Of a stretch of DNA of 64,000 nucleotides, positions 27,789 to 50,974 are shown piece by piece. The notes beneath the pieces were generated by a model. The model had not been told where the DNA came from, ran no database searches, and saw only the letters and a program-made list of their open reading frames with translations. How positions within the stretch are numbered: position 1 is the stretch's first letter; each line of letters opens with the position of its first letter. The translations under genes were made by a program, and so were the position numbers. This DNA is from Elusimicrobiota bacterium (lineage in GTDB: Bacteria > Elusimicrobiota > Endomicrobiia > Endomicrobiales > Endomicrobiaceae): the NCBI GenBank assembly GCA_017528425.1, contig JAFXOV010000021.1, positions 1 through 64,000 on the forward strand, read 5' to 3'.

Positions 27789-27830
27789 AATTCAAAATAT
27801 TTGTTAAATTTTTAATCAAAGTGAACAACA

Positions 27831-28808
27831 ATGAAAAAAATATCAATAATAGTTCCTGTATACAATGTAGAAAAATATTTGGCCCAATGTTTGGATAGCA
27901 TACTAAACCAAACATTTAAAGATTTTGAATGTATTTGTGTAAATGACGGTTCTACCGATAATTCTCTGAAAATTTTGCAGGAATATGCACAAAAGGATAA
28001 AAGATTTAAAATAATAACCCAAGAAAACAAAGGCTTATCCGGTGCAAGGAATACCGGTATAAGAAATACAAATACAAAGTATATAACATTTATAGATTCC
28101 GATGATTGGGTAACAGAAAACTATCTGGAAGTACTATATAATGAATTAGCAGAAACAAATGCGGATATCGTAAGAGCAAGTTACAAATTTTATTATCAAA
28201 AAGAGAATTTATATAAATCCGCAAGAATAAGAAAAATACATAAAATAAATTATAATACCAACATTGAAAGATTATACAAAGGATATGCCGGTGCTTTTGT
28301 TTGGGCAAAGATATACAAGACTTCTTTAATAAAAGATAATGATATTTGGTTTTATGAAGGCAGAAATGCCGAGGATTGTCCTTTTACTGCAATGTTATAT
28401 CTTTATTCTCCAAACATTAAGTTTATTGATAGTGAACTATACTTTTACAGAAAACATAGCTTGAGTATAACCGGCAATTTTGAAAAAACCGCGACCGATG
28501 ACTTCTTTAATTTTATTACACTGACAAAAGATTTACAAAAAAGAAATTTTAATGAACAGGAAATAAAAGAATTTTGTATAGATATATTCTTATATAAGCT
28601 CGGTAAATTGGGCAAAAATATTTCAAAGCAAACATCTCAACAAATTTATTCAGTTTCGTTGGAACATATAAAATTTTTAAAAGAAATTTCTGCAGATTTA
28701 AAATTTATTTATAGGTCCAAGGTAAAATTTTCAATGTTTTTATTAAAAGTTTTTAATATATTTTCTTTTAAAATCTTTAGAATATTAAAAAATTTTTCGA
28801 AAAATTAA
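27831..28808 (+). CDS. family 2 glycosyltransferase
   Basis: The 325-aa GT-A enzyme opens with ISIIVPVYNVEKYLAQCLDS. It has the nucleotide-sugar motifs VNDGSTDNS, NKGLSGARNTGI and the metal-binding FIDSDDW (DxD-like), then an acceptor region with DCPFTAMLYL. The basic, aromatic C-terminus (about 285-325) could be an amphipathic membrane contact. It probably adds a sugar to a surface polysaccharide; the sugar cannot be inferred. It is the only intact glycan gene in this patch and its stop abuts that of the broken Stealth gene. Confidence 0.88.
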   Translation: MKKISIIVPVYNVEKYLAQCLDSILNQTFKDFECICVNDGSTDNSLKILQEYAQKDKRFKIITQENKGLSGARNTGIRNTNTKYITFIDSDDWVTENYLEVLYNELAETNADIVRASYKFYYQKENLYKSARIRKIHKINYNTNIERLYKGYAGAFVWAKIYKTSLIKDNDIWFYEGRNAEDCPFTAMLYLYSPNIKFIDSELYFYRKHSLSITGNFEKTATDDFFNFITLTKDLQKRNFNEQEIKEFCIDIFLYKLGKLGKNISKQTSQQIYSVSLEHIKFLKEISADLKFIYRSKVKFSMFLLKVFNIFSFKIFRILKNFSKN

Positions 28809-29762
28809 TTACACTTCAAACGAGGATTTTTCAGGGAACAAACTTTCCAGAAAAGCAACACCTCTGTCAATGGAATCATCGTCAGCCACTTCATTATCGT
28901 TTAAACAAAACAGTTTTATGTTTTTTTGAATTTTATATTTCTTTTCTTCATACCCCAACATTTTTGAATCTTTAAATATTTTAAAGAAGACTTTTGAAAT
29001 ACATCTCAAAGAGTTAGGAATTTTATATATCCATTGATTTTTAAGGACGGCATGTCCGATGTACAAAGAATAAAAGCTCCATATCATTTTACTTACTGTA
29101 TCGGGTTGCCTAAACCTATAATTTGTAACTATATCGAATTCTTTTTTAAAAAGTTCTATACATTTTTGTGCATCCGGTTTATAAAAAGCATCAATATTAT
29201 GATGTTCAAAAAAATTCATTTTTTTATTAAACTTGGAATAAAAGATTTCAGAAGTAAATTTAAGTATCCTATCATAACACTTTTCAATCTTCTTTTCAGG
29301 ATGATAGTTTGGTTTAAATCTTACAATGGGATATCCGTTTTTATTAAAGAATGTCTTTTCCGATACAGTTTTTACAATATACATATCATCATTCGAATAC
29401 AAAAAACGGTCAGACAGGTTTGGTATATTTACAATACAAGCTTCAATAGCAGGTGAACTAAAAGTAGGTAATGCATTTTGCGGCATTATTTGAGAATGTG
29501 TGACTAATTTGATTTTAGGATTGTTTATATTTAACCATTTTGGAATTTGACCATTAGTAACCAAATGGACATATCTTATAAATTTTGCATTTTTTTAGAC
29601 ACTTCTAAGCAAATATTTTAACTCATCATTATTTCTAAATCTGGCAGATATTGTTCCTTCCCGAATCTTGTTTTCATCTTGCATATTTTTATATTTGTTT
29701 AATATTTTTATATGCTCGCTATCATTTCCGTCAACCCATAAAACAACTAAATCTATATCCAT
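28809..29762 (-). pseudogene. Stealth-family sugar-phosphate transferase, interrupted by in-frame TAA
   Basis: A 318-codon frame runs from the ATG at 29762 to the stop at 28809. Its start LVVLWVDGNDSEH is Stealth region CR1. Then come FRNNDELKYLLRSV, a TAA at 29597-29595 (codon 56), and the frame continues KNAKFIRYVHLVTNGQIPKW into CR2 (LPTFSSPAIEA, DRFLYSNDDMYI) and later regions (FFEHHNIDAFYKPD). Homologues usually have Glu at the TAA position, so a single GAA-to-TAA change explains the break. Intact Stealth proteins transfer sugar-1-phosphates in capsule-like polysaccharides. A recent nonsense mutation is most likely; sequencing error or restart at a downstream TTG is possible. A restart product would lack CR1. 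Confidence 0.85.
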
Positions 29763-29841
29763 TTACTATTGTCCCTAAACAAAAATTTGTTTCTTGGTTC
29801 TTGTGGCAATAATACCAAATTCAAACAAACTCTTCAAACTT

Positions 29842-30782
29842 CTATTCAAACCATTTATTATACTTAAAAGAATATGAAACAACTTTATCGAAAGATAAAA
29901 CTTTTTCTTCTAATTTTTTATAAACATCAGAATCTTTTTCAACATTTGTTTCCAATATGGTTTGTCTGTTATGTCTCATGGTATTGCCTCCTTCAACAAT
30001 AGCAATATTGTTACCTTCACAAATAAATGCACAATGACTTGCATGTTCATCTAAAGCATTTGTTCCTAAAACTGTAAATTTTAAATCTTTACCTAACATG
30101 TGTGCCAATGTAGGGATAATATCCAGATGAGATACAGTATATTCTATTTTTTGCGGTTTAAATATTTTAGGAGCATATATTATAAAAGGAATATGAAATT
30201 TATCTTTCAATGTATTCCCCTTTTCTATACCATTAGGAACATGATCGGCAACAAAGATAAAAATTGTATCATCAAACCAATCGTTTTGTTTTGCTTTTTC
30301 GATTAATTGTCCTATTGAGTAATCAGCATAGTATAACGAATTCAAATATTTATTTTCTTCCGTTGTTCTGGGATATTTTTCAAACTCATCGGTAGTTTGA
30401 GTAAACGGAATATGTGTTGAACCGGTAAAACCTAATATAAAAAATGGAGTACTTTTTTTTAGTTGTACAATTTTTTCATTCATAAACATACAGAAAACAT
30501 AATACATATAACAGATATCAAAAATTTATAATATTTTATGGATTTTATAGGAACAAACATCATAACAAAAGGAAGACAATAAAATATTGTCATGATTGAT
30601 AAATCAAATTTTATTGAATACAAAAAAGATTTTAATATTTGAATATTCGTTAATGTAAATATACTGCTATACTTTAACAACAAATAAATTCTACCGATAT
30701 CAAAAGAAATCAAAGTAATTAAAATCACCGATACTGTGAAAAATATTTTTGTTTTAAAATCTTGATGAAGGATCTTCCCCAT
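29842..30782 (-). pseudogene. LTA-synthase/sulfatase-type phosphotransferase, internally deleted remnant
   Basis: Two overlapping minus-strand frames give the ends of one protein. Frame 30782-30480 (100 aa) encodes membrane helices typical of LTA-synthase-like N-termini (YSIKFDLSIMTIFYCLPF). Frame 30507-29842 encodes the C-terminal half of the alkaline-phosphatase-like domain (PFFILGFTGSTHIPF, IFVADHVPNG, VSHLDIIPTLAHML). The usual protein is about 600 aa. The missing middle includes the catalytic Thr/metal region, and the junction is out of frame. The product cannot be active. A short independent CDS for the C-terminal part is possible but would lack the nucleophile. Confidence 0.75.
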
Positions 30783-30783
30783 T

Positions 30784-31623
30784 TTAATTCGTTCTCATAA
30801 TATAACACAATGCATAATATGGTGGCATGTTGTTATGTGGCTGTGAACCACCGGTTTCTAATATGGAAAAAGGGGTGTTACCAGATCCAGATATATTTAT
30901 ATCGCCACCACCACTTCCACCGCCACCGCCACTGAAGGTTCTATTTATTTCATGTTTATGTTTCGGCATTTCATTTATTGTTAATGTATGTTCTTCTTCT
31001 CCGCCGGTTGCATCTACCGCATATCTGTTCCCCGCCCCTAAAACAAATCTGTTTCTTAAGTCCGGTGTACCATTTGTCCCGTCGCATAAAACCCATCCTG
31101 AAGGTATATCATTTACGGAACCGGACCAAATTATTATTGCTCCTTTAGGCACCATAAAATATTCCGTAGTTCCTATAATTTCTTTTGCACCGTTAGAATC
31201 CACAACAAACTTTTTATCATTACCTACGGTTACAGAAAATTCGGAATTTTCCGTAACGGTTGCAGATTCGGTTGTATTTGAATGTAATGAATATGGAACA
31301 GCCGTAAGCTTTTCTCTCGGTTCCAATTTTTTGTTCTCTATTTCAATTTCAAGATAACAGTCTTTTTGCCTCCAATCTATATCGGGATTTAAAACTACGG
31401 AAAAGACCCCGCTTGAAACCACAACGGATTTATTTCCCGATTCCCATTTTGCTGTTCCGCCGACAAGTTGATTATAAATTTTAAAATTCATAATTTTTGT
31501 AGCATTAACTTCGGTTCTATATTCTTTAAGTTTTCCGTTGTATCTTATTTCGTTAGGAACATCCGCAACAGCCAACTGAGCAACAAAAATAAAAGATATC
31601 ACAATTAAAAATTTCTTTAACAT
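30784..31623 (-). CDS. secreted tail-collar / microcystin-dependent-like protein
   Basis: The 279-aa protein has a signal peptide (MLKKFLIVISFIFVAQLAVA), an N-terminal region common in Elusimicrobia-type surface proteins (EIRYNGKLKEYRTEVNA ... REKLTAVPYSLHS), and a C-terminal phage Tail_Collar-like domain. The latter shows MVPKGAIIIWSGS, IPSGWVLCDGTNGTPDLRNRFVLGAG, MPKHKHE, a Gly-rich loop and HNNMPPYYALCYIMRTN. Unlike phage fibres it is exported and has no tail genes nearby, so a surface fibre or adhesin role is likely. GGAG precedes the ATG. Its stop nearly abuts the start of the broken sulfatase gene. Confidence 0.82.
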   Translation of the reverse strand: MLKKFLIVISFIFVAQLAVADVPNEIRYNGKLKEYRTEVNATKIMNFKIYNQLVGGTAKWESGNKSVVVSSGVFSVVLNPDIDWRQKDCYLEIEIENKKLEPREKLTAVPYSLHSNTTESATVTENSEFSVTVGNDKKFVVDSNGAKEIIGTTEYFMVPKGAIIIWSGSVNDIPSGWVLCDGTNGTPDLRNRFVLGAGNRYAVDATGGEEEHTLTINEMPKHKHEINRTFSGGGGGSGGGDINISGSGNTPFSILETGGSQPHNNMPPYYALCYIMRTN

Positions 31624-34316: not shown

Positions 34317-37300
34317 CTATGCAGCCGCCAAGATACTTCTTACTGTTTGTGCGGAAATATCTAATTGTTTTGTAACTACCAATTTATCTCTCAAGCTATC
34401 ATCCAACAATATGTTAACATTCATAAGATTTGTCTTTGCATTTTCTATCTCATCTTTAGCTTTTATTTCTTTTATTGCAGTTTTATTTGCTATTATTGTC
34501 TTTCTAACATCTTTATTTAATTCTGTTCTTATTGCATCAAACAATTGTTCAACAGTTTGATTTGTGTCCGGTCTTGCATTTAACAACTCATCTAATTTTA
34601 ATTCTGCATCCGCCATAACAAGTTGTATAGCTTTTATTCTAACATACTGTCTGTACTCTTTATATTCTTTTTTCAAGAATTTATCTCTCAATTTTACTTG
34701 ATCTTCTGTTTCAAAAGCAGACTGGCCCAAAACAAAACTGTCTACTATTTGATTTACAGCTCCTCTTATTGTACCAATTGCTTCAAAGTAGTTTCCCCCT
34801 TCAAGTTCAGTTTTTAATCTCATTTGTATTACAGGCGGTAATTGTTGATACATTTCATATAATTTAGCTTTTTCTTGTGATAATTCCTCTCCCGCCTCTA
34901 CATCTTCAATTGCATTCTGCAAATCTTTCATCATTTTTTCTAATTTTGTTGTATCTGATGTTGTTAAGATTGATTTAATTGTGCCACCTTCTCTTAAATT
35001 TTCCAATAATCTTTCTCTTACATTTTTTATCTCTTCTCCAAATTCTTTACCGAAATTATAATCACTTACCGCAGCGGTTTCTTCGGTTATTCTCTGTTCC
35101 GGACTTTTCGGCTTTAATAATTCATTCATTGTTCCGAACATATTTTTAAATATATTTGCTAATCTTTCTCTTAAATTTTCTAATCTGGTTCCTTCATTAT
35201 CGGTACATAATATATTTGCAAGGTTTCCGGTAGATAACATATTAGATAATATAGCTTCTATTTCTTCGGTACTTTTATCTTTTATTACATCTCCATATCC
35301 GATAGCATATTTTTCTGTCATTTCTGCTACTTGATCTACATTTATTATCGGTATTATTCCGTTATCGGTGTATATTCTATTAGCATCAATTCCTTTCGCA
35401 GTTGCCATATTTACATACATTTGAGTTTCTATATGTAATATCCCTTCACTATTATTTGCCGCTAATTCTTCTAATTTGCTTAAGTCTCCTCTTTCTGCTT
35501 CGTCAAGAATTGCTCCATCCAATTTAAAATCATCACTTTCAAAAGCGTCTCTTATTTCTTCAAAGTTTCCTCTTAGTATAAACCTAAAACCATCCGCTCT
35601 TAATCCAGCAATTTCAGATCCATATTTTTCTAACTGACTTGCATTTATTATTATTGTTGTTGCAAATTGTTTGTTACATTTTGATGCAAGATTTCGACCG
35701 ATCTTTTTCATACCCGACAAATCTAAACTTACTTCTACTTCCGCTCTTTGCATCCCGTTTATAGCTGCATTTGCAATTCTGTCTTGAATATTTGCTAATG
35801 ATTGTTTTACTTTTTCATCATCTGAACCAGGAATTATATCACCTCTTTCCGCAAAAGATATTACTTGTTCATTCGAAAACTCTAAATTTTTTCTTCCTTC
35901 ACTATATGCTGCCGCTATCAACTCTTTTATTTTTTCTCTACTTAAATCTATACCCTGTTTTGAATATACAAGTAATTCATTGGCACTTGAATCAAAAGTC
36001 ATTCTGATTTTAGCTTGTTCGTTTATTAATAATCCGCCTCTTTGTCTTGCTTCTTGTTCCGTTATTATTCTTAATTTAACTATATTTATCCCTGCACTTT
36101 TTGCTCTTTCTCTCAATGCTTCATCAACATCTACATCTACTATTATATTCTTTCCTTTCATATCCATAGCTTTATTGGTATCGAATATTTCGCCTATTGT
36201 ATCCATTATCAGCTGTATAGGATTTACACTTGCTTTTACTAAATCAATTAAATATTGATATTGCATTTCCTCTGTTGTACTTTCCTGCTGAACACTTACA
36301 TTACTATTTTCTACAGGCATAACTATTCCCATCTCAATAAATATATCGACAAGTTCTGAGCCTGAAATAAAATCATGAGTTTTTCCTACAATTTCTTTTT
36401 GAATATCTTTTGATGCAGAACTATCAGTTAATTTAACCAAATTTAACAGAAACTCTAAATTACTTTTATCATATGGATCTATCATATTTATAATCATTTT
36501 TTCGAACGGTAATATAATGCTATCTGTTTTTAAAATTTCAAATAAGCTATGAACATACTTTTTTAATTCATCTTTATAATCCGATGATAACGAAGGATTT
36601 CCTTCTATTAATGCTTCTATCATTTCTTCCTTAGTATTAGTATTAATTTCTTTATTTTCTATATTTAACACCAACTTAGCATTATTATTAGAAAAATTTA
36701 TTTCAATTTCTTTATCGCTTAATTTTTTAATATTTGATATTATTAACCCTTCACCAATAGGAATATCATTCGCAGAATATACATAAGGTTTCTTATTTAA
36801 TCTATTTTTTTCTATTCTTATTATCCTTAATCTACCATCAACTATACCTATCATTACAATTGTTTTTTCTGTTCCTCTACTTCCGATTAAAAACTTTGCA
36901 TCGAGGCCACTATCTTTTTTAATTTCCATTATTTTCTGTCTTGTAACAACATCAAATTTATAAAGTTCATCATAAAACATATCATTATAAAATATAAATC
37001 TATTATTCTCGAAACCTATACAATATTTTATTCCTACAGAATTTGTGCCAGCATCTTTAGTTCCCAATATATTATTGTGTTCGTCTACTCTTACTTTAAA
37101 GAACAACTCTCCTTCTTTAATTTTAGAATCCAACTCTGAAAATTGTACTCTTTTAACTGTTGTAGCATATTTGATTTCTGCTGTATAATTATCTTCATAT
37201 TTTTTGCTATCTATTACAAAAAAAGTTTCTATTCTTTTTTCATTCATATTAATAACTACCACATAGATTTTGTTATTAATGTTTTTTATATATAAAGTAT

Positions 37301-40300
37301 TACTTTCTCTTTCCGAACATAAATCCCAATCATTTATTATAGTACCAATTAAATTTTCTGATGAGCTATCCATTAAAAAATCCAATGTTATTGCAGAATT
37401 AAAAGCTACATTTGCGTCTTCATACCTATCTATATATTCTTCATTACCATTCATCAATATAGAATGACCATCACATATATGCAACCAATCATCAAAAGAA
37501 AACTTGATTCCCGTAGGAAAATTTTGATCAGATTCATTGTTTTTAGTTATACGTATAGTTTTATCTGTCGTAAAATCATCACCAAACTTTTTCTTCCAAG
37601 ACATATATGCATATATAACGGCATACATTTTCATTTGATTTTCTCTTTCTCTTTGTTTATCTTCATCAGAAACATCAGCAAACACATAATCATGAATTAC
37701 ACGACTATCTTCTGCCGTAAAACTGCCATCAAGTTTGAACAATTTAGTCAAAGAAGCCAAAACATCTTCCGGTAAATCTTTGGTTCCATTAAATAACTCT
37801 TCTAAAACATTACTCTGATTTGAATCTGTAACAGAAAAATGTTTATTAGTTTTTTTAGAGATTTTTGCAGATATTATTTCAATATCAGCATTTGACAAAG
37901 AAACATTCACTCTTTCTAACATTCTTTTTATTTTATCTGATACTGACACTTCATTTTCTTGCGTTGTTTGTTCAACCTGCGGAACTGTTTGTTGTACTTG
38001 TTTAAACAAGGATATTATCTCTTGTCTAATGCTTTGTTGTACACTTTCGTCTCTCAACTTTTGAATTTTTCTTTGTTTAGATAATTCTATTGCACCCAAA
38101 TTTTCAAGAATCTGTTCTATTTCATATGATTTATATTTGCTTCTTATTAAAAAATTTGTTAATTCATAAAAACTATCTCCTGCAACATCTCTCATTAAAT
38201 TAAAGAATGCTTTTTCGTCATTCGCGCTTACAGACGAAGCAAGCCATCTTTTTTTTGTCTCATAAAATACAGGCGCAAAGTGTTGAGCATCAATTCCTAA
38301 ATATTCTAATTGTTCTTGTAAATCTTTTTGTTTTAATCCAAAATCATAAATTGGTTGAATTAGAGCTTGATTCCGCCCTGTATCAAGAAGTCTTAACAAT
38401 TCAGTTTGCCATAAGTCTATTCTTGCTTCCGAAACGCCACTCATTCTTTTTATATTTTCTATAACAGAATCTATACTAAAATCTATACCGGAATTTTCTA
38501 TAATAGAATCTATAATCGAAGATTCTATCTCTTCTGGCAAAACAGTTTCACCTTTAATACCATTTTTCTTAGCAAAATCTTTAGCTACTATACTAATAAC
38601 TTCTCCCAAAATAAAATATTTTTGTTCGGGAGTGAATTCTTGTTGAGTCGTTTGTGTTTCTTGCTGTTGCTGTTGAGTTTGTTCAACCTGCGGAGCTGTT
38701 TGTTGTGATTCCGGTTGTGAAACAGTAGTTTTTCTTTCTCTTTTTTCCCTTTCTTCTAATAGTCTTTGTGTATTATCATTTTGGGAAACACTTATTGAGT
38801 AAAAACTCGTATCTCCATTTCCTATTTCCTTTTGTATTAAACCAGAGACTATACCATCGGCTGCATCTTTTCGAATATTAGACAGGCCGACATGCATACC
38901 ACTTATTTCCCCAATTGCGGCAAAGCTTAATATCTCTTCAGAGGTTTTCTGCCCTCTATTAAGTGTATTATATACTGAAAAACCTGGCGTTACACTTTTT
39001 TTATTACATCTTAAATATATTGGTTTTGAAAGATCTCCTAAATTACCATGGACAACAGCATTTTTTATAAACTCACGCATTATTATATTTCCATAAAATT
39101 GAACGCCGGAATTTCCTGAAAAAGAATAAAACCATGTTTTATCCAATAGACTGACTAATTGCCTTCCGAATTGGAAATATAATGCAATTTTCTGCATTTT
39201 TGTTAAATTTTCCACATTATAAGCTCTTGAAAAAGGATATATTATCAATAATGTATCTTCTTCTCCGTTTTTCATTAATTTTTTTATTTTCTTTTCATTT
39301 ATATCTTTACCATCTGTATCTACACCTGCATCCAAGAAAACAGTTTCAATATTTTCATCTTTAACACTTATACCTTCTTCTGTCTGCAAAGCTTTTTTTA
39401 ACGTTTCCAATTGTGTTCTAATTTCAGGATCTTTAGGTTTTTCTCTACCATATTCATCTTTTGTTACTTCTATAGATTCACCACTTAAATCTGATACTAT
39501 TCTAGGCATTTCCTCTTGCTTAACAGCACTTACAAGAGTTCCTGCATCGTTACTTTGAATAGTAAGATTATGTCTGGAAACTTTTATTTTCAAATCAAGA
39601 AAATCTTCTATACTTTCGATTGTTGTATATCGTGATGATTCCAATGTAAAAGCATCCTCGCCTTCAGACTCCACATAAATGACTAATTTTCTACCTTTTA
39701 TACCAATATCTATATAATCTTTTGTCTCTTCATCCTCATTTGTTAAACCTGCTAATTTTGCCGTTACAGAATAAATTTTTCCGTTTTTCTCTATCAAAAT
39801 CGTAGCCGGTTTTTCTTCATCATTTCTAAATACTACTTTATCTTTTGATTTTGATTTAACTTGCTCTTGGTGTATTTTCTGGACACCAAGATTCCACATA
39901 AGGTGGGTTATGAATTCTGTAGCAAAAAGGGTAGGTATTCCAAGAAATCCTGCAAAAGGACTAAGGGTTACAGCCAATACAGTACCTGCTCCTACACCCA
40001 GCCCAATACTTAATGCTCTTATTACCCATATAGCAATTATCTGTGCCATAGTAGGATTTTCATGTTCTTCAATAAAACTTTCAATTTCTATATTTTTTCC
40101 AAACACAGTTGTATTTATTGGAAATATTTTCCAAAAATCCAACATCTCATACCATACACCTAATACTGTTCCTTTGAAACTGGACCTATCTATACCTTTA
40201 TCTTCTAAATATTTTTTTGTCTTTTCTGTTTGTAATTCTACATAGTAAGATTTACCTGAATGCCTGTTCCTAATTACATCCGCAAGCCTACTAAGAAAAT

Positions 40301-43300
40301 TACTCGGTAATATCGTAGCAACAGATAATAATCTCTTTTGTTCTTTGCTTATTTTTGGTATATTTTTTTGAGTCTGTACTGTATTACTTTCAACTTCTTT
40401 CGCTTCTGTAATAAATTCTTCAAACAAAACTTGTACCTCATCATCAACCATAAATATTGTGTGGTTAGAACTTTCTATTTCAGCATAAAAAATATCTTTA
40501 AGTGTTATTTCCGTTGCATCATCATGTTCTTCAAGATAACTGTTAATTGCATATTCCAAATTACCGGTACCGGAAGACAAAGAATAACCGAAAAGCATTT
40601 CTTTACCCGCTTCGGTGACAATCTGTGGACAAAAGTTTATATTTCTTCTTGACAATTCTTTCTTTATCATTTCAGCTGTCACATAAGAATGACAACAAGA
40701 CAAATCTATAGTTATGTGTTCTATCGTATTTTTTATATACTCATCACCTTCCCCTTTCATATTTTTTATTGCTTTTTCTATGGAATCTGCAATTTTTTTA
40801 TCTACTCTAACGGAACCAAACTCTGAATATGCCCATATTCCATCTGCACCATGTCCGTTCAATACTAACAATAAATTTTCACTTTCTCCTTCCTTATATC
40901 TAAAATTAGGAATTTCATTAAAAAAGGCATCTACTTTTCTTCTTAGTTTAAATTCTCTTATTGGACTAAAATTAGAAAGAGATTTTTGCATATCCGTAAG
41001 TTCTTCACGTTTATATTCATCTCCGGCAATATAAATTCCAGCAAATAATTGAAGAACTGTCGTGACAACAGGGAAAACCATCGGCAAATATAAGAAACTA
41101 AATGCAGGGAAAATTAAGGATAGAGCGAATAGTCCTAAAACTCCTATTGCGACAGGTATTCCAAGTTTATCTAATTTTTCAAAAAATTTGTTAAGTTTTT
41201 TTCTTCCGGCATAAAAATCTTCTTCACCTGTTTCCTCATAGACAGCCAACATCTGTTCAATTTCTTTTTCAATTTCCGCTTCATTAATTTCCTCTCCGTT
41301 CTCTTTCATTTCATTAGTAAGTATAACTCTTAACATGTCTCTATAAGCTTTGGATGTAAATCTGTAACCTTCAGTCCCCATTCTTATATCAGCTCTTTCA
41401 TTGTGATTGGCAATCGCTACTCTTGTATATTTGCCAATAAACTTTTTTTCGCCGGACTTTTCAAGAATTCGCGACATTATATCTATTGCTTTTGGTATAA
41501 GAGTTTCTAAATTCTCATTAACAAACTCTTCCGTAAGCCCCGTTGCTGAAATAAATCTACACATTTTTATGGCAGTTCTGTACTGTATTGAAACAGATAA
41601 GTCTTCGTATTCTTTCTGAAATTCGGGAGAAAGAAAAATTTTCAATGCCAACGCATTGTTTTCTAAAGAAAAATGGTAAATGGTTTTTTTTGACAAATCG
41701 TTCAACAAATCAATTAATTTGGAATAACTGCTATCATCCATTTCTATATCTGTAGAAAGCAGTTCCAAAAATAGCATTGCAGAAGCTATATCTGTTACTC
41801 TAAAGTTTTTTTCTTTTAAAAAATTTAAAGTATCCTTATTAATTTCATTAAGTGAACGAATTGTTGATGATAATTCATTGTCATAATATCCACTTGCATT
41901 TAAAAGAGGCTCTATATTTTTTGCCAAATATTTAACTGTTTCTTCATCAAAATCTTTCGTTAAAGGGAGAAGTTTTCTTGCTAATTTTTTCCTCATACTC
42001 CAACTAACCATTTCTCCGCCGGAAAATTCACTAACAAAAATATCTCCGTATTTATATCCGGAAATTATAGATTTTGCACGCATTTTTTTTATATTCTTTA
42101 GAGAAAAACTACGTCTCTTTAAGAAATCCATTTCATCTATCTCGCCTTTCAAGTATTTTTTCAAATTATTTATTATATACCTGTTTGTTTTTTTTGCGGT
42201 AAAAGCTCCCTGTAACATGTATCCAATTTCTCTACCTGAAAAATCTTCATTTTCAATATCAATATTTTCTTCTTTTACAAATTCATCCAAGATTTTACAT
42301 ATTTTATATATTCTATTAACCAAATCCTTATCATCTTCTAAAATGTTGATATCTGAATCTGCAAACCAAAGATCTCCAAAGGAAAATTTTGCAGATCCGT
42401 TGGTACGAAACCACTTCATCAATATTCTTGCTCTATCTATATTTTCTTGAAGCTGATTAATATTTATTTTCTCTTCAAAATAAGGTTTAAATATACTTAT
42501 TGCAATATTAGGACGCATTCCATTAGTTATGAAATAATATAAATCATTGTGAATAAAATTTATATCCAAATCTCTTTTAGATACTTTTTTGAGTTCCATC
42601 AATACTTTAAGGTAATCTCTAAGATAATATTTATGAATATTTGATAATTGTTCTTTTATATCATCGGATAACTTTCCGGTTAATTTTTCTATTTCTTCTA
42701 TTACTTTATCAATATCCTCATAGTCAATTTCTATGTTCTGCGTTTGTTGAGCCATATATTGTTCTTGAGATGATAATACTGTTGATATTGTTTCCGGTAA
42801 TTTATCACTTGAAAAATATTTATCAGAAATTGTTTTCTTTCCTATATCCAAAAAATCATATGCCCCAACAACAAATTCAACAGAATCGGCAATAACTTTT
42901 TTCATCTTTTCAAGTTCACTTTTACTGTATTTTTTAAAGTATTCCATTGCTCTAAGTTCATCGACATCTTTAGTCATAATATCATAAATTACCAATATTT
43001 CTCGTTTTGTTATCGCATTTCCTTGTGCCGTTATTGCATTATCATTTATTTTGTTCTGCATCGCCATTATATCCTTGGGGAAGAACATTAAATTTCTCGG
43101 CAAAAAGAAATAAACTTTTTTCCCTGTTCGATTACAATCCAACAAAACTTCGGGAATGTATTCTTCAGGTACATAGCCATTGGCAGATTTAGATTTTCCG
43201 GAATCAAAAAGAAGTTTTCTGGCACCATCAAACCAATCACATAAATTCATTCCATATTCAGAATCAATAAAAGCTCTTAAGAAATCATATCTTTCTTCTG

Positions 43301-46300
43301 TCTTTCCATCCGGCATTGTTTTACTGAAAAAAGAATCATCTTGTATTGTTTGTATAACTGAACGTAACCCAAAAACATACCCATTATATCTATTAAAACG
43401 TTTATCTTCATTATCATATTTTTTTCTTGTTACATTTGCTTTTCTTCCCTCTGTCCATGCATCATATACAGTTTTGTATTTCACCAAATTGCTAAATTGT
43501 TCAAGCTTGCTATATTCTTCACTCGTTTTGTATTCTTCGTATTCTTTTTTATATGCATCATACCACTCAGTAACTTTATTGTATATATCCGTAAAACTTA
43601 TAAGACCGCAAAAAACGTTAAGATATTCATACCCTTCACTTGCCTTATATTCTTCATACCATTTATCCAAATTATTTTTTTCAGTTCTTTCTTCGGGATT
43701 TAAAAACGTTTTACTCATCAACTCATGAAGTCTTTGAAGATTTTCATACTCTTTACTTTCCTTGTATTTCTCGTACCATTCTATTTCTTTATCATTAAAA
43801 TGAGATTTATCCATAAGTTCATCAAGAAGTTCAAGTTTATCGTATAGTTCTTTTTTATTATATTCTCCATACCACAACATAGCCGTATGTAATAAAGATG
43901 CATCATCTGCTTTCCAAGAATCCCATACTTCTTTTACTTCTTCATCTAAATTCAAAAATTTTAGAATACCTTTTAATTCCGGATACTTTACATATGAAAT
44001 ATCTATATCATAAAAATAATGAAGTATATTTGTGACCGTCAATGTTGTTATTATGGCAGGAATTACAACCGCTATTGTGAGTGGATTGATTAAGCTTATT
44101 ATGGCAGGTACAATTCCAAAACCTATCCCTATCGATAGAGCCCTTATTCTCCAAACAACAGCTGTTGCAATTTTCCTTTGTAAAGGAGTTTGAGGGCGGT
44201 GTGCCGCAACAAAATTCGGCATCCAAAAAGCAAATGTTTCAATATTTACACCTATTGCTTTACCTAATCTGGTGTTTTTAAAATTTTCCCCGGCTTTGTC
44301 CTTATATATCCTTCTTATTATTTCTGTGTTACCAAGTCTGTCCAAGAAAGCTTTTGTTCTATCAAGAAGGAGTTCCATATATATCATATTCCCTTTCTTC
44401 GCTAACCATCTTTGTACAAGAACAGTGCGTTCATGTTCTTCGTATCTATCAAGATATTCTGTTATCTCCATTTCTTTCGTACCATAAGTAATTTCATCCG
44501 AAGAAAGGTCTAACATCTCAAAAACTTTCTGCCTTAAATTATCAAACAAATTTTCCATCTCTTCATTCGTTACAGCAAAGACAGTATAATTTGCAGAGGC
44601 TCTTTCTGCATTATGAAAATCAGCCAAAGTTAATCCTTTTTCTTTTCGCTCTTCAAATTCGCTTTTGTGTGTCAAAATATATTCTATTAAAGATACTTCC
44701 TTGTTACTCAATGTTACATTTGAGCTTCCGCTAACAAGATCTGTCGAACTAATTGAAACAGGAGAACTCTTCATATCTATAAATTTGCCTTTCAAACTTT
44801 CATAACCGGCATCAGTTACTATATTAGGAAAAGATGGTTTTAGATTTTCTTCTTCTAATCGTTTTTTCAATTGTTCTATTATATTTATTGAAGAAAAATA
44901 TGACCAACAAGTAGCCAAATCCAATGTTATTTCACTTAAATCCAAATTCACATCTTTTCTCTTTGCATCTACTAAAGCTTCAACTATATCTTCTACCTTT
45001 AAATTGTGTTCACCTGTAGATAAATGTGTTGGTTGTCCATGCCCGGAATACATTGCATACATATTTTTTAATCCGTATCTGGCTTTATTTTCAGGATAAA
45101 ATCTAATAGTATCCAACCATCCATTTATGGTAACTTTATCATCAGAATAATCTCCCGTACATTTAAAATAATCTCTTTTAGGATTAATTCCCAACAATTT
45201 AAAAATTGATTCCCAACCTTCATTAGTACATTCTTCTTCCATACCTAAAAGGCAATAAAAGCCTGTTTCATTCGTTACGGTATTTCGTGATTGTAGTTGT
45301 TCTACTCCTTTATAATATATATCCATCAACATTGGGAGTATTTTATCTATTTGTTGTTCAGTTAAATCAGCAGCCTTATCACCTATTGTGTAATAAAGCA
45401 ATCTTCCAATCTTCATTGCATCTTCATAATCCGTCATTTTGGTTTTTGTTCGTTTATTATCTTGAAAATATTTATTCAACAATATTTTAAAAGTTAAATC
45501 ATTTGCCTCTGTAGATATATCATCAATTCTTCTCTCGGAAAGTTCCCTTGCTAACGGCAATAAAATTTTATTAAGATTTTCGTCTGAAACATTCAAGTCT
45601 CTTGCAATACGTACAAAAGAGCCTATTATCGCCGATTTATTAACCCTATTACTACTAATAGGTGCTCGTTGAAAAATATCATATAACTCTTCCCATCTTG
45701 TTCTAGCCGGTGTTCTATCCGTCTGTTTTGCTGCTATCTTAGAACTTTTTTTAGCTTTAACTCTCGTTTTCTTACCATCTTTTGTTGTTTCAAATACACT
45801 TTCGTCTTGAGAACTTTCATCATATACGCTCTCTAATTTTACATTTTCTTGTATGGTTAAATTTCCATCCTCATCTATTACCGCAAAAACCCCTCTTTTA
45901 TCACTTTTAGTATCAAATATCTCAATCATAACCAGATTTTTGCCATCTTCCGATTTTACATTTGAAATAACATCTCCGTAGTATAAATCATTAAAAGAAA
46001 CATCTGATCTGAATTTTCTAAAAAACTCTGTTACTCTATCCTGCTCTTCTAAAATTTTGCTAAATCCAAAAACCCTCATTCCTTGATCGAACGGCATAAC
46101 ATATAAATTTCCATCAACATAAAAAGAAAAGCTATTGTCCGTAGGTTCCAACATCAGATATCCATTTCTTGTCGCTTCATATTCGTCTTGTAAACGACTC
46201 ATCTCTTTTTTTTCTACTTTATCTCTGTTTATATGGTGTGTCCACTCATGAACAATAGTTGATAATACTTGTCTGTCAAGATTAAATGTTTCATCTTCAT

Positions 46301-49300
46301 TATAATTAACGGGAATTATTATAAAATCTTTTCTCTGTCCGTTAATTTCAACCGTATGCGCACAAGCACTTCCCAAGAAATATTCATCATCAGAATCTGT
46401 CTTCATAAAAATTACTTCAGGAACATTATCATAATCACTGGGCAAATTTAAAAAAGACAATGCTTTACCAATATCACTTCTAAGAAAATCTCTAACTCCT
46501 TGAGAACTTGAAACGGTAAGAGATGTTTCCAAATATTTTTTTGACTCCGGTGCAAACATTGTATTATTTCTTTTAAAACTGTTATAAAGTTGTTCAAAAG
46601 CCTCAGGGGAAGATAAAATTTGTTCCATATTTGGAGTTGAATATTGTATTTCAGTTGAAGCTTGTTCCACTTGAGTTATAGCTTCTTGCGGTGCTATAGA
46701 TTCTGCCGTTGAATGTTGTAAATATCCGGGAATAATAGCGGATAACAATAATGTCCCAATTAAAAATATGCCCGCAATTATAAGCCTTATTTTTCCTTGC
46801 TTTCCTTTTTGTTCTTGTTGCGTTGCAGGTGTTTCATCTTGTTTTTTTTCTTCGGGTTGTTCCACACTTGCTTGTTGATCCGCTTGTTTCTGAGAAGCTT
46901 GTTCTTCTGTTATTTCCGTTTGCTCCTTTTCTATCTGTTGTTGTTCCTGTCCTTCAAAACTGAAATATTCTTCCAATAGTTTATCTATTTGTTTTTCATG
47001 TTGTCTATAAAATTCCGGATTTTTCTTTTGAGGATATATTCTCATAAATTCAGCTATTGACATTGCATACGGTTTACCATCTATTCCTTTAACAACAATA
47101 TCATATGGTAATACAGTATCCCTACCTTCGTCCGTATCAATTATAATCATCGAGCCTTCTGCTTTTTTCGACTCTTCTTTTTCCTTCACTTCTCCAAAAG
47201 AAACTGTTACACTAACTTCTTTTTTTGTAGCATTGAATATTTGTCTTACTCTTTTATCCTCACTTACTTCCGTTCTATAAATTCTTTCAAACTTTTCCCT
47301 TTTCATAAAACTTACAGATCCGGTTGCACTTATAACAAACATAGGATTTACGGAGATATTATCTGTTCTTGCTGAAAGAGTTGAATTATCCGGTTCCACA
47401 TCATATATTCTTATACTAAAGTGGTTATCTTTATCATATTTAGATTTCAAAACATAATATCTGTTACCTTGTTCATCATATTTTTCTTCTCCTTTTTTAA
47501 CGCCTTCTAAATATCCGTGATCTTTTGCATATTCTAAATCAAATGCCTGCACATCAACTTCCGCACTTGTTACCGAACCTCTCCAAATTAAATCATCCGC
47601 CGTTAATGCCGGTCTTATAAAATTTTTTATTATTTCAAATATTTTTTTCGCTGCATTTTTCCCTTTTTCTCTTAATTGCTCATTAACCTTTTCTTTCTCA
47701 GCTGTCATATCTACATCCGCATCTTCCATATCAATAACATGAATTCTTAACTTTTCTAAATCATCTCTTCCTTTTACACCTTTTTCAAAGAATATACCCA
47801 ATAATTCTTTAACTTCCGGAGATAATTCTTTAGATCTTAATAAATCATATAGTTCTCTTTTTGATGCACTAACTTTACTATCATCAAAAATTACATCAAT
47901 TACTTCTCCTTTTTTATTTCTAACAACATCTTTAATTACACCTTCTTCTATTAAATCAACCAAGAATAAAAGATATTCAACTGAATTATTTATCGCTCTT
48001 TTTTCTGTTATTGCAGGAGATTGATTATCTCGTGCCAATATTCTGCTATTTATTAAAAATATCTCATTTTTTTCACGATATGCATTTAATAAATCATTTT
48101 CTATAGATACTGCTCTACCACCGACAATAATTGCAAAATTCGGAACATTTTTTATTTTTGCAACAGCCTCGGAATAAACTTTCCCGTTTTCGGCAACAAA
48201 CTTAAATGCATTCATAAACTCCATTAAATTTGTTCCGTTTTCCAACAAATCCTGTTTATCCATTTTTCCAAGTAAATCTTTTATATCTTCAAATGTTTGC
48301 TTATTCGGAAATTCGTCAGGCTCGACATACTCTAAGTAATCAGTTGCTGTAACATAAACCATTAAAGCATCATACATTTGAGACAAGACTGTTGCTGTAG
48401 CATCTATGCTACCTTTACTTGCTGTCGGGCTCGACAATATACCAAATCTTTCCTTTCCAAGAGTCTTTGATATTTCTTCCATCAAAGGTGCTAATACAGA
48501 TATTGTTATCCTGTCATAATCACCTTGCGGTGCAGAATAACCTACCAAAGAGAAGAACATTTCAACTTTGGCAAATGCTTTTTCTATTTCTCTTCTTACT
48601 TGTTCAGAAGATTTTATTTCCGAAATATTCCACAATTGTTTTAATAAATCTAACTGCTCTTTTAGTTCTTTTTCACTACATTCTTCTAATTCTTTATCAT
48701 CATATTTAGATAGTGCTTCTAATATTCGTTTATACTTATCACTCCTGCTTTTTAATAACTGTATATGATGTTCGGATAATTTAGGCAATGCTTTTATTTG
48801 ATTAATTATCTTGCTTTTTATTTCCTGTTCTCTTTTTTGTGCACGTTGTCTTTTGTTCTTTTCTCGTTTTTGTATACGTTGTCTTTTGGATTCTATTTTG
48901 TTTTTTGTTTTTCTCAATGCTCTTCTGATACCTACTGCAGCCTTTTGCACAACTGTACCACTCTCCATCGTACGCATTTCTTCTTCGGCATTTTTTAATA
49001 TTTCCTTTATGGAATCGACTTGCCCATATTTTAAAGCGTCTCTTAATTCATCCAAATCAACAAATTTCGCCAAATCAACACCGACTTTTTCACCACTTAT
49101 TTTCTCTAAAAATTTCACAAAATCATTATCATCGGATTCCAAGAATTTGCTCTCTTCAATATTTCTCTTTATATTTCTCATCTGTTCGGATATTTCTTGG
49201 GCTGTTTTTTCTTCTTCAGCCGTTAAACTCATTGTATCTATCTGGGCTACACTATTCGGAAAAAGTTCTTTTGCTATATCAACACCGAAAGCCATAACTG

Positions 49301-50927
49301 CAGCTTTTACTCTAATTTCTTCGGAATATGCGGAAAACGGTAACGTTGCCAATGTTTGGAAAGAAATTTTACTTTGTTCTTTTGCTATTTCATAATATGT
49401 TTCTTCTGCGAGTTTTACTCCGTCTGTAACATTCGGAGTTATAACGATATAACTTACTCCGTGATTTTTTAATATCTCTGTTACCGTTTGAGAATGGAAA
49501 CCTCCGGTTATTACAACATCTACTTCTTTTACACCTTTCATATTGTCTATTATTTTGTTTACTTCACCTTTGGCTTCCACTTCGTTTTCAAGTTTACCCA
49601 ACACACTTTCTTTCGTAAACATATTGTCGGTAAAATATATGTTTCTGTCGGTATTTATTTTATAGAATTTATCAGCTTCGGCTATATATTCATCCAACAT
49701 GCTTAATACTTTATTATCTACGTACTTATTCCATAATTGTCTAAATGTATCTATATTTTCTTTATAATATTCATAGTCGCTTGCCGTAATTTTACTGCTT
49801 ACATAATCTCTTAAATATCTTTCAAAATTTGTTAAAAAAACGACTTCCATTTGTACTTTCGTTTCGGAAAATTTCGTATTTATTTCTTCAGTCAATCTTT
49901 TTTCTTCGTCTATTAATTCCAACGGATTTATTTTTTGACTGAATTCTATATAACCGAAATAGTTATCCAAATTAGGGAAATTTACCGTTAAATCCAATCC
50001 CAATTCTCTGCTTATTCTTACGATATATCCGTACAATTTATCTATCTTTGAAAAATTTTCTGTATTATCAACCAACATTTGGTATGCGGAATTTGCTAAA
50101 TTTTCTCTCAACAACAAAATTAAGTTTTGTAATTCGTTGGTTATTTTCGAATAATCTAAAGTTTTCTGCATTTCCAAAAGAGACATATAAGTAAATGTGT
50201 TTTCGTATTTACTTAAATCTATTCCCAATTTATCTATATGTTTGGATAACAAAGCATAATATTTCTGAGGTGTTATTGTTCCTTCTCTGTAATTTTTTGA
50301 AAGTTCTTCTAATTTATACTGCCTTTTTGTGTAATATTGTTTTTTTACTTCGGCCAAAGATTCGCTAATTGCATTTAATATTACATTTATCTTTTCTTGA
50401 TTTTCTACTATCTCACCGAATCTCTTTAAATTTTCCAAGTACGGAATTTTTTCTTCCAATCCGCTTATTATTTCCGTCTTCCCGCTTACTAAGCTGTAAT
50501 ATTCCGCACCTGTCAATCTTCCCGTATCCAACATCTTTTTCAAAATTTCAACTTTCTTGGATGGTTCTATTCTGTCACTTATCCATTTCGTACTTAGTTG
50601 TCCGTATACACCTTCCAAATAAACATTTTTTACTCCGAAACTTTTATCGAATATTTCTATTATGTTACTGATGTTTTCTTGAACTTTCGGATGGCAATGC
50701 AAATCTTGTATGTTTATTATTACTCTGTCGGTTCCTGCATAATGTGCACTTGTTATTTGACCATAGTTATAGGGCAACATGAAATCTTTAAATATTTGTT
50801 TATATTTTATTGTGGCCTCTTCGTTTGTCATGGCATTGGCAACCGTAGGCGCAACAACAAAAGACCAAACCAAACAAATTGTAGTTATGATACTTATAAA
50901 CTTTTTAAATTTCATTAAAATTTTCAT
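34317..50927 (-). CDS. giant 5,536-aa multidomain membrane protein (caspase-like, zincin, GHKL modules)
   Basis: One uninterrupted frame. In order: signal peptide 1-32 (cut after TVANA); ChaN/TraB-like domain about 35-560 (QDLHCHP 74-80, GGFH 475-478); a basic coiled region near 690-760; a Q/E-rich linker and transmembrane span about 1377-1400; zincin motif HEWTHH 1560-1565; caspase/C11-like domain with His1963 (SGHG) and Cys2007 (ATCWSY); hairpin 2262-2308; W-Y repeats 2346-2493; hairpin 3255-3300; a second caspase-like domain with His3359 (NGHG) and Cys3412 (SCCHSY); hairpin 3632-3680; GHKL ATPase-like domain about 3900-4060 (N-box EFIKNAVVHG, GMHVGL at 4010); Q-rich linkers near 4085 and 4315; long helical C-terminus. 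The ATG at 50927 has GGAGG; a longer frame enters the upstream hairpin. Domain names are motif-based; the overall function is unknown. Confidence 0.9.
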   Translation of the reverse strand: MKILMKFKKFISIITTICLVWSFVVAPTVANAMTNEEATIKYKQIFKDFMLPYNYGQITSAHYAGTDRVIINIQDLHCHPKVQENISNIIEIFDKSFGVKNVYLEGVYGQLSTKWISDRIEPSKKVEILKKMLDTGRLTGAEYYSLVSGKTEIISGLEEKIPYLENLKRFGEIVENQEKINVILNAISESLAEVKKQYYTKRQYKLEELSKNYREGTITPQKYYALLSKHIDKLGIDLSKYENTFTYMSLLEMQKTLDYSKITNELQNLILLLRENLANSAYQMLVDNTENFSKIDKLYGYIVRISRELGLDLTVNFPNLDNYFGYIEFSQKINPLELIDEEKRLTEEINTKFSETKVQMEVVFLTNFERYLRDYVSSKITASDYEYYKENIDTFRQLWNKYVDNKVLSMLDEYIAEADKFYKINTDRNIYFTDNMFTKESVLGKLENEVEAKGEVNKIIDNMKGVKEVDVVITGGFHSQTVTEILKNHGVSYIVITPNVTDGVKLAEETYYEIAKEQSKISFQTLATLPFSAYSEEIRVKAAVMAFGVDIAKELFPNSVAQIDTMSLTAEEEKTAQEISEQMRNIKRNIEESKFLESDDNDFVKFLEKISGEKVGVDLAKFVDLDELRDALKYGQVDSIKEILKNAEEEMRTMESGTVVQKAAVGIRRALRKTKNKIESKRQRIQKREKNKRQRAQKREQEIKSKIINQIKALPKLSEHHIQLLKSRSDKYKRILEALSKYDDKELEECSEKELKEQLDLLKQLWNISEIKSSEQVRREIEKAFAKVEMFFSLVGYSAPQGDYDRITISVLAPLMEEISKTLGKERFGILSSPTASKGSIDATATVLSQMYDALMVYVTATDYLEYVEPDEFPNKQTFEDIKDLLGKMDKQDLLENGTNLMEFMNAFKFVAENGKVYSEAVAKIKNVPNFAIIVGGRAVSIENDLLNAYREKNEIFLINSRILARDNQSPAITEKRAINNSVEYLLFLVDLIEEGVIKDVVRNKKGEVIDVIFDDSKVSASKRELYDLLRSKELSPEVKELLGIFFEKGVKGRDDLEKLRIHVIDMEDADVDMTAEKEKVNEQLREKGKNAAKKIFEIIKNFIRPALTADDLIWRGSVTSAEVDVQAFDLEYAKDHGYLEGVKKGEEKYDEQGNRYYVLKSKYDKDNHFSIRIYDVEPDNSTLSARTDNISVNPMFVISATGSVSFMKREKFERIYRTEVSEDKRVRQIFNATKKEVSVTVSFGEVKEKEESKKAEGSMIIIDTDEGRDTVLPYDIVVKGIDGKPYAMSIAEFMRIYPQKKNPEFYRQHEKQIDKLLEEYFSFEGQEQQQIEKEQTEITEEQASQKQADQQASVEQPEEKKQDETPATQQEQKGKQGKIRLIIAGIFLIGTLLLSAIIPGYLQHSTAESIAPQEAITQVEQASTEIQYSTPNMEQILSSPEAFEQLYNSFKRNNTMFAPESKKYLETSLTVSSSQGVRDFLRSDIGKALSFLNLPSDYDNVPEVIFMKTDSDDEYFLGSACAHTVEINGQRKDFIIIPVNYNEDETFNLDRQVLSTIVHEWTHHINRDKVEKKEMSRLQDEYEATRNGYLMLEPTDNSFSFYVDGNLYVMPFDQGMRVFGFSKILEEQDRVTEFFRKFRSDVSFNDLYYGDVISNVKSEDGKNLVMIEIFDTKSDKRGVFAVIDEDGNLTIQENVKLESVYDESSQDESVFETTKDGKKTRVKAKKSSKIAAKQTDRTPARTRWEELYDIFQRAPISSNRVNKSAIIGSFVRIARDLNVSDENLNKILLPLARELSERRIDDISTEANDLTFKILLNKYFQDNKRTKTKMTDYEDAMKIGRLLYYTIGDKAADLTEQQIDKILPMLMDIYYKGVEQLQSRNTVTNETGFYCLLGMEEECTNEGWESIFKLLGINPKRDYFKCTGDYSDDKVTINGWLDTIRFYPENKARYGLKNMYAMYSGHGQPTHLSTGEHNLKVEDIVEALVDAKRKDVNLDLSEITLDLATCWSYFSSINIIEQLKKRLEEENLKPSFPNIVTDAGYESLKGKFIDMKSSPVSISSTDLVSGSSNVTLSNKEVSLIEYILTHKSEFEERKEKGLTLADFHNAERASANYTVFAVTNEEMENLFDNLRQKVFEMLDLSSDEITYGTKEMEITEYLDRYEEHERTVLVQRWLAKKGNMIYMELLLDRTKAFLDRLGNTEIIRRIYKDKAGENFKNTRLGKAIGVNIETFAFWMPNFVAAHRPQTPLQRKIATAVVWRIRALSIGIGFGIVPAIISLINPLTIAVVIPAIITTLTVTNILHYFYDIDISYVKYPELKGILKFLNLDEEVKEVWDSWKADDASLLHTAMLWYGEYNKKELYDKLELLDELMDKSHFNDKEIEWYEKYKESKEYENLQRLHELMSKTFLNPEERTEKNNLDKWYEEYKASEGYEYLNVFCGLISFTDIYNKVTEWYDAYKKEYEEYKTSEEYSKLEQFSNLVKYKTVYDAWTEGRKANVTRKKYDNEDKRFNRYNGYVFGLRSVIQTIQDDSFFSKTMPDGKTEERYDFLRAFIDSEYGMNLCDWFDGARKLLFDSGKSKSANGYVPEEYIPEVLLDCNRTGKKVYFFLPRNLMFFPKDIMAMQNKINDNAITAQGNAITKREILVIYDIMTKDVDELRAMEYFKKYSKSELEKMKKVIADSVEFVVGAYDFLDIGKKTISDKYFSSDKLPETISTVLSSQEQYMAQQTQNIEIDYEDIDKVIEEIEKLTGKLSDDIKEQLSNIHKYYLRDYLKVLMELKKVSKRDLDINFIHNDLYYFITNGMRPNIAISIFKPYFEEKININQLQENIDRARILMKWFRTNGSAKFSFGDLWFADSDINILEDDKDLVNRIYKICKILDEFVKEENIDIENEDFSGREIGYMLQGAFTAKKTNRYIINNLKKYLKGEIDEMDFLKRRSFSLKNIKKMRAKSIISGYKYGDIFVSEFSGGEMVSWSMRKKLARKLLPLTKDFDEETVKYLAKNIEPLLNASGYYDNELSSTIRSLNEINKDTLNFLKEKNFRVTDIASAMLFLELLSTDIEMDDSSYSKLIDLLNDLSKKTIYHFSLENNALALKIFLSPEFQKEYEDLSVSIQYRTAIKMCRFISATGLTEEFVNENLETLIPKAIDIMSRILEKSGEKKFIGKYTRVAIANHNERADIRMGTEGYRFTSKAYRDMLRVILTNEMKENGEEINEAEIEKEIEQMLAVYEETGEEDFYAGRKKLNKFFEKLDKLGIPVAIGVLGLFALSLIFPAFSFLYLPMVFPVVTTVLQLFAGIYIAGDEYKREELTDMQKSLSNFSPIREFKLRRKVDAFFNEIPNFRYKEGESENLLLVLNGHGADGIWAYSEFGSVRVDKKIADSIEKAIKNMKGEGDEYIKNTIEHITIDLSCCHSYVTAEMIKKELSRRNINFCPQIVTEAGKEMLFGYSLSSGTGNLEYAINSYLEEHDDATEITLKDIFYAEIESSNHTIFMVDDEVQVLFEEFITEAKEVESNTVQTQKNIPKISKEQKRLLSVATILPSNFLSRLADVIRNRHSGKSYYVELQTEKTKKYLEDKGIDRSSFKGTVLGVWYEMLDFWKIFPINTTVFGKNIEIESFIEEHENPTMAQIIAIWVIRALSIGLGVGAGTVLAVTLSPFAGFLGIPTLFATEFITHLMWNLGVQKIHQEQVKSKSKDKVVFRNDEEKPATILIEKNGKIYSVTAKLAGLTNEDEETKDYIDIGIKGRKLVIYVESEGEDAFTLESSRYTTIESIEDFLDLKIKVSRHNLTIQSNDAGTLVSAVKQEEMPRIVSDLSGESIEVTKDEYGREKPKDPEIRTQLETLKKALQTEEGISVKDENIETVFLDAGVDTDGKDINEKKIKKLMKNGEEDTLLIIYPFSRAYNVENLTKMQKIALYFQFGRQLVSLLDKTWFYSFSGNSGVQFYGNIIMREFIKNAVVHGNLGDLSKPIYLRCNKKSVTPGFSVYNTLNRGQKTSEEILSFAAIGEISGMHVGLSNIRKDAADGIVSGLIQKEIGNGDTSFYSISVSQNDNTQRLLEEREKRERKTTVSQPESQQTAPQVEQTQQQQQETQTTQQEFTPEQKYFILGEVISIVAKDFAKKNGIKGETVLPEEIESSIIDSIIENSGIDFSIDSVIENIKRMSGVSEARIDLWQTELLRLLDTGRNQALIQPIYDFGLKQKDLQEQLEYLGIDAQHFAPVFYETKKRWLASSVSANDEKAFFNLMRDVAGDSFYELTNFLIRSKYKSYEIEQILENLGAIELSKQRKIQKLRDESVQQSIRQEIISLFKQVQQTVPQVEQTTQENEVSVSDKIKRMLERVNVSLSNADIEIISAKISKKTNKHFSVTDSNQSNVLEELFNGTKDLPEDVLASLTKLFKLDGSFTAEDSRVIHDYVFADVSDEDKQRERENQMKMYAVIYAYMSWKKKFGDDFTTDKTIRITKNNESDQNFPTGIKFSFDDWLHICDGHSILMNGNEEYIDRYEDANVAFNSAITLDFLMDSSSENLIGTIINDWDLCSERESNTLYIKNINNKIYVVVINMNEKRIETFFVIDSKKYEDNYTAEIKYATTVKRVQFSELDSKIKEGELFFKVRVDEHNNILGTKDAGTNSVGIKYCIGFENNRFIFYNDMFYDELYKFDVVTRQKIMEIKKDSGLDAKFLIGSRGTEKTIVMIGIVDGRLRIIRIEKNRLNKKPYVYSANDIPIGEGLIISNIKKLSDKEIEINFSNNNAKLVLNIENKEINTNTKEEMIEALIEGNPSLSSDYKDELKKYVHSLFEILKTDSIILPFEKMIINMIDPYDKSNLEFLLNLVKLTDSSASKDIQKEIVGKTHDFISGSELVDIFIEMGIVMPVENSNVSVQQESTTEEMQYQYLIDLVKASVNPIQLIMDTIGEIFDTNKAMDMKGKNIIVDVDVDEALRERAKSAGINIVKLRIITEQEARQRGGLLINEQAKIRMTFDSSANELLVYSKQGIDLSREKIKELIAAAYSEGRKNLEFSNEQVISFAERGDIIPGSDDEKVKQSLANIQDRIANAAINGMQRAEVEVSLDLSGMKKIGRNLASKCNKQFATTIIINASQLEKYGSEIAGLRADGFRFILRGNFEEIRDAFESDDFKLDGAILDEAERGDLSKLEELAANNSEGILHIETQMYVNMATAKGIDANRIYTDNGIIPIINVDQVAEMTEKYAIGYGDVIKDKSTEEIEAILSNMLSTGNLANILCTDNEGTRLENLRERLANIFKNMFGTMNELLKPKSPEQRITEETAAVSDYNFGKEFGEEIKNVRERLLENLREGGTIKSILTTSDTTKLEKMMKDLQNAIEDVEAGEELSQEKAKLYEMYQQLPPVIQMRLKTELEGGNYFEAIGTIRGAVNQIVDSFVLGQSAFETEDQVKLRDKFLKKEYKEYRQYVRIKAIQLVMADAELKLDELLNARPDTNQTVEQLFDAIRTELNKDVRKTIIANKTAIKEIKAKDEIENAKTNLMNVNILLDDSLRDKLVVTKQLDISAQTVRSILAAA
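43451..43892 (-). repeat. degenerate W-Y-E-x-Y protein repeats inside the giant gene
   Basis: Residues about 2346-2493 hold four to five imperfect units of roughly 32-38 residues. Each begins W-Y-[GED]-x-Y-[NK] (WYGEYNKKELY, WYEKYKESKEY, WYEEYKASEGY, WYDAYKKEY) followed by a Leu-rich helix. The charged, helical character suggests a spacer or rod. The block sits immediately after the first membrane hairpin. Confidence 0.75.
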
Positions 50928-50938
50928 ATTGCCTCCAA

Positions 50939-50974
50939 TAAAAAAAGCTTGTATTGTTTTTATACAATACAAGC
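50939..50974 (-). terminator. terminator-like hairpin directly before the giant gene's ribosome site
   Basis: Minus-strand stem GCTTGTATTG/CAATACAAGC (10 bp, 8-nt loop) is followed by a T7 tract and then, within 3 nt, the GGAGG of the giant gene. The hairpin contains the last codons and stop of the 166-aa gene. It is a classical intrinsic terminator shape placed where it would limit transcription into the giant gene. Confidence 0.8.

Follow-up and report, generated by a model that had tools for sequence, protein, structure and literature searches.

A Stealth-family gene with one internal stop codon in an Elusimicrobiota genome, probably a recently inactivated pseudogene

Does a gene whose frame is open along its whole length except for one codon still specify an enzyme, or has it been lost? 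This question is raised by a Stealth-family gene in the window, by which we mean the whole 64,000-nucleotide stretch of DNA that was analyzed (contig JAFXOV010000021.1). The Stealth proteins act as phosphotransferases in the building of surface polysaccharides, as described in the excerpt of PMC10668966 used here. The initial annotation had left three explanations for the interruption side by side, namely, a very recent loss, phase-like on/off variation, and an assembly error. The gene and its stop are as follows.

28809..29762, minus strand: Stealth-family gene (sugar-phosphate transferase) with one internal stop, assigned from Pfam CR1, CR2, and CR4 and from relatives
29595..29597, minus strand: in-frame TAA at codon 56, within CR2, seen in the translation, at a homologue column that is mostly Glu

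When the 318 codons from 29762 to 28809 on the minus strand are translated, the only stop other than the terminal TAA is the TAA of codon 56 (29597-29595); the peptides quoted in the initial annotation are correct, as is its statement that the frame is open apart from codon 56. A frame of 317 codons with a single internal stop and without a frameshift does not arise by chance, since 5000 first-order Markov sequences built from the gene itself contained a mean of 27 stops over that length, with a minimum of 11 (0/5000 with one or none). The remaining five frames of the same interval hold 11 to 50 stops each. The GC content at the three codon positions is 0.38/0.22/0.26 before the stop versus 0.34/0.26/0.24 after it.

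With X in place of the internal stop, profile searches recovered CR1 (PF17101, 34.3 bits against a cut-off of 27.2, residues 1-27), CR2 (PF11380, 134.9 bits against 39.4, residues 41-145, a range that includes the stop), and CR4 (PF17103, 28.9 bits against 27.4), the last with CLND at 286-289, a form of the CR4 motif CLND/CIND. CR2 is the most conserved region of the family, with a length of ∼100 residues. The protein aligns with CpsY of Mycobacterium tuberculosis (8J2N) across residues 2-315 (E value of 2.4e-27) and with the catalytic domain of GNPTAB (7S6N; E value of 9.6e-34). It differs from the known Stealth proteins (Pfam CR1-CR4, CpsY, and GNPTAB) in the stop at codon 56 and in the Pfam CR3 profile, which went unreported at an E value of 0.001 both here and in three relatives. 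Residues E107, N124, D126, and R218 align with CpsY E305, N322, D324, and R419, the last being the essential arginine of CR3, and all four activity residues are therefore kept. In the excerpt of the CpsY study, changes at these four positions lowered activity or the residues were called essential, and activity was removed by deletion of spacer S1 and also by deletion of residues 257-260 (PMC10668966). Across 11 full-length homologues, 58 columns are conserved in 80% or more of the sequences; the present gene retains 54 of these, and the internal stop is one of the four lost. We infer from these likenesses that the gene encodes a sugar-1-phosphate transferase, with a predicted role and substrate to match.

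The CR2 alignment runs through codon 56 without a gap and with both flanks fitting, in agreement with what had been read from the letters alone. The stop column is occupied by Glu in 16 of 20 homologues, with Ala in two, Asp in one, and Phe in one, a count that includes L029, a weak match scoring under the Pfam cut-off; CpsY, whose structure is known, has Asn there. Because Glu is found in 16/20 homologues, a single substitution is the simplest account of the TAA, and both the predominance of Glu and the sufficiency of one base change had been put forward in the initial annotation. CR2 matches number 17, in 16 of the 294 genomes of the phylum, and the stop is present only in this one. The mark of a pseudogene, a stop inside a frame that is conserved among homologues, is thus found here. 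The region upstream of the stop, through CR1, is present in all 14 aligned homologues, with D4 and V6 invariant. Homologues that start naturally downstream of the stop would have spoken against an interrupted gene; since all 14 reach upstream, the gene does not normally start 3′ of codon 56, and none with a natural start beyond it is known.

The neighbors of the Stealth gene add to the picture of this locus.

27831..28808, plus strand: intact glycosyltransferase family 2 gene of 325 aa, directly abutting the Stealth gene tail-to-tail
27813..29809, no strand: ∼2-kb segment (glycosyltransferase and Stealth gene), absent in G006 and G002, borders approximate
29842..30782, minus strand: membrane sulfatase/LTA-synthase-like remnant upstream of the Stealth gene, with a net 988-bp frameshifting deletion
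30480..30508, minus strand: sulfatase deletion junction, alignable to either side of the lost segment, where the two gene pieces overlap

The ∼2-kb segment is missing in two congeners: 38 bases separate the counterparts of window positions 27812 and 29810 in G006, and 67 bases separate those of 27812 and 29840 in G002. A third genome, G003, has different genes on the segment side of the locus. Target-site repeats and mobile-element ends were looked for at the segment, and nothing convincing was found. Parts of contig C34, which belongs to the same genome and holds many glycosyltransferase matches, resemble the glycosyltransferase gene with a DNA identity of up to 74%.

The adjoining sulfatase gene has its full length of 1929 bp (642 aa) in both G003 and G006 and measures 941 bp here, the net deletion of 988 bp having caused a frameshift; of the 301-position sulfatase profile, only positions 153-300 are left. 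The present genome has four other sulfatase genes, which cover almost the entire profile. The G002 orthologue (L102) carries a different lesion of ∼58 bp, also frameshifting. A patch of 96.5% identity joins positions 665-951 of L102 to window positions 29840-30126, where the neighboring region is at ∼85%, and this suggests that sequence was exchanged recently at the 3′ end of the sulfatase gene. As judged from sequence, two adjoining putative surface genes, the Stealth gene and the sulfatase gene, are broken amid gene turnover.

Two further reading frames of the surroundings were noted. A secreted-looking protein (window 30784-31623 and L100 111-947) with weak tail-collar/baseplate-like matches below the cut-off adjoins the sulfatase gene here and in G003, whereas in G006 it is found on the opposite side at a distance of ∼10 kb. 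Further along, window positions 34317-50972 form an open frame of 5551 codons for a giant protein, the counterparts of which in G003 (L099) and G006 (L100) are either truncated where the stretch examined ends or shorter in themselves, with the same C-terminal ending. An internal stop flagged in a decarboxylase gene of G006 was found to lie just upstream of the start of that gene and is trivial.

A Stealth match is found in only 3 of the 11 genomes of the genus, the present one counted, and the gene therefore appears to be dispensable in the genus. The closest relative found is that of G013, which belongs to the same family and another genus, with 56-57% identity, while those of the congeners G008 and G001 reach 47% and 37%, respectively; a closer Stealth gene in another genus than in congeners fits horizontal exchange. 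Unlike the present copy, the G013 gene is intact and sits in an apparent polysaccharide cluster, its ORFs judged by eye. When an empty site was looked for at the G008 gene, congener matches started at 8835-8915 of L079, just past the Stealth gene, with no match on the other side. The G001 homologue (L081 1309-2256) keeps CR2, an open frame, and 40 of 65 conserved columns, and both its CR1 motif and its NDD motif are altered, so that it may be inactive or altered despite its open frame.

We conclude that the Stealth gene of the window is probably a pseudogene recently inactivated by a nonsense mutation. An intact sugar-1-phosphate transferase gene would have entered the locus together with its glycosyltransferase neighbor, or would have stayed while the congeners lost both. 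A single nonsense substitution would then have halted translation after 55 residues, in CR2 and before the four activity residues. The predicted product is a 55-residue peptide without activity, and the cell is predicted to be without the sugar-phosphate transfer of this enzyme onto surface glycan. A further frame lies downstream of the stop.

28809..29564, minus strand: 251-aa open frame after the stop, from a TTG at codon 67, a mechanical ORF call

No active product is predicted because translation ends before the activity residues and a restart at this TTG would be without CR1 and the start of CR2. We infer that the stop exists in the living population and that no full-length protein is made.

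If the loss is real, it would also be recent, since the remainder of the gene contains no second stop even though 152 of its 2844 possible single-base changes would create one. With equal rates assumed and indels ignored, this implies fewer than ∼55 neutral substitutions (∼6% of the gene) since inactivation, at 95%. Relative-rate counts of window-unique and G013-unique changes gave 37/22, 24/16, 31/13, and 19/9 with four outgroups, with a chi-square above 3.84 in only one of the four comparisons, a hint of relaxed constraint or faster change here than in G013. Of the three explanations first offered, very recent loss is the one best supported, by the single stop, the absence of indels, the catalytic residues kept, and the broken neighbor. 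The interruption looks like ordinary gene loss with no new mechanism. A likeness can be seen to pneumococcal cps loci with aliD remnants, in that both are surface-glycan loci in which intact, stop-carrying, and remnant genes are found together, and the aliD remnants, as presented in the excerpt of PMC5111408 used here, differ in being another gene, in another phylum, with several stops rather than one.

The gene could instead be intact in the organism and the draft base wrong or drawn from a minority, through a consensus or assembly artefact or a strain mixture. We regard this as unlikely, though not lightly so: the genome is a draft of 64 contigs (2.08 Mb) with 4.69% contamination, and the functional look of the rest of the gene would fit an error in a live gene too. 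Against it, none of the 64 other domain matches examined in the genome (29 to PF00535, 29 to PF00005, and 6 to PF00884) has an internal stop, and the large deletion in the neighboring sulfatase gene is something that a base-call error cannot yield, even if a misjoin could. An exact-match scan around the stop against viral contigs found nothing.

Phase variation often acts on genes for surface polysaccharides, and an A7 tract starts one base into the stop codon, so that the gene might be thought a contingency locus that is switched on and off reversibly. The TAA, however, begins 5′ of this tract, the sole A tract there, and a ribosome would reach the stop before a longer or shorter tract could bring it back into frame; slippage therefore cannot undo the interruption. 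Near the gene, the search for switch-like repeats found no long, well-matched flanking inverted repeat, the longest arms being 38 nt at 71%. As for a silent second copy that could serve as a recombination source, the genome has one CR2 match only, and a 43-bp match on contig C43 lies in surroundings (L084) where tblastn found no Stealth gene. The earlier proposal of phase-like variation thus fares poorly, and we consider reversible switching very improbable.

Hardly more credible is a two-piece or restarted enzyme, in which the 251-aa downstream frame would itself be functional. This frame exists and includes the catalytic residues, but it is without CR1 and the start of CR2, it also lacks the parts that match S1 and 257-260, both of which CpsY needed for activity in the excerpted account (PMC10668966), and the upstream part is the one shared by every aligned homologue. 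Least probable of all is suppression or recoding of the stop to give a full-length protein, for although the frame past the stop remains open with a composition similar to that before it, the other 16 of the 17 CR2 matches contain no stop and so mark no conserved recoding site, the Stealth gene itself ends in TAA, and neither code reassignment nor a suppressor tRNA is borne out by the 42 distinct ARAGORN tRNA genes (43 Rfam tRNA matches), none of which has a stop-reading anticodon.

Recent inactivation by a nonsense mutation is therefore the reading with which we proceed. What is new is its setting, with the segment missing in two congeners and the adjoining sulfatase gene broken. In the literature searches, no title or abstract opening pointed to an interrupted Stealth gene from this phylum, a result that does not prove absence. 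It is conceivable, if rather improbable, that the species is losing one cell-surface glycan pathway in a concerted way, selection (such as that exerted on the polymer by phages or the host) having disabled both a newly acquired Stealth/glycosyltransferase segment and the LTA-synthase-like sulfatase beside it, with intact and broken forms coexisting in the same populations.

If the inactivation is real, the locus would be a place where surface-glycan genes come and go in a gut lineage that has been little studied, where the Stealth/glycosyltransferase pair is present or absent and where the functions of the Stealth gene and the adjacent sulfatase have been lost, and the interruption would offer a simple marker for strain surveys.
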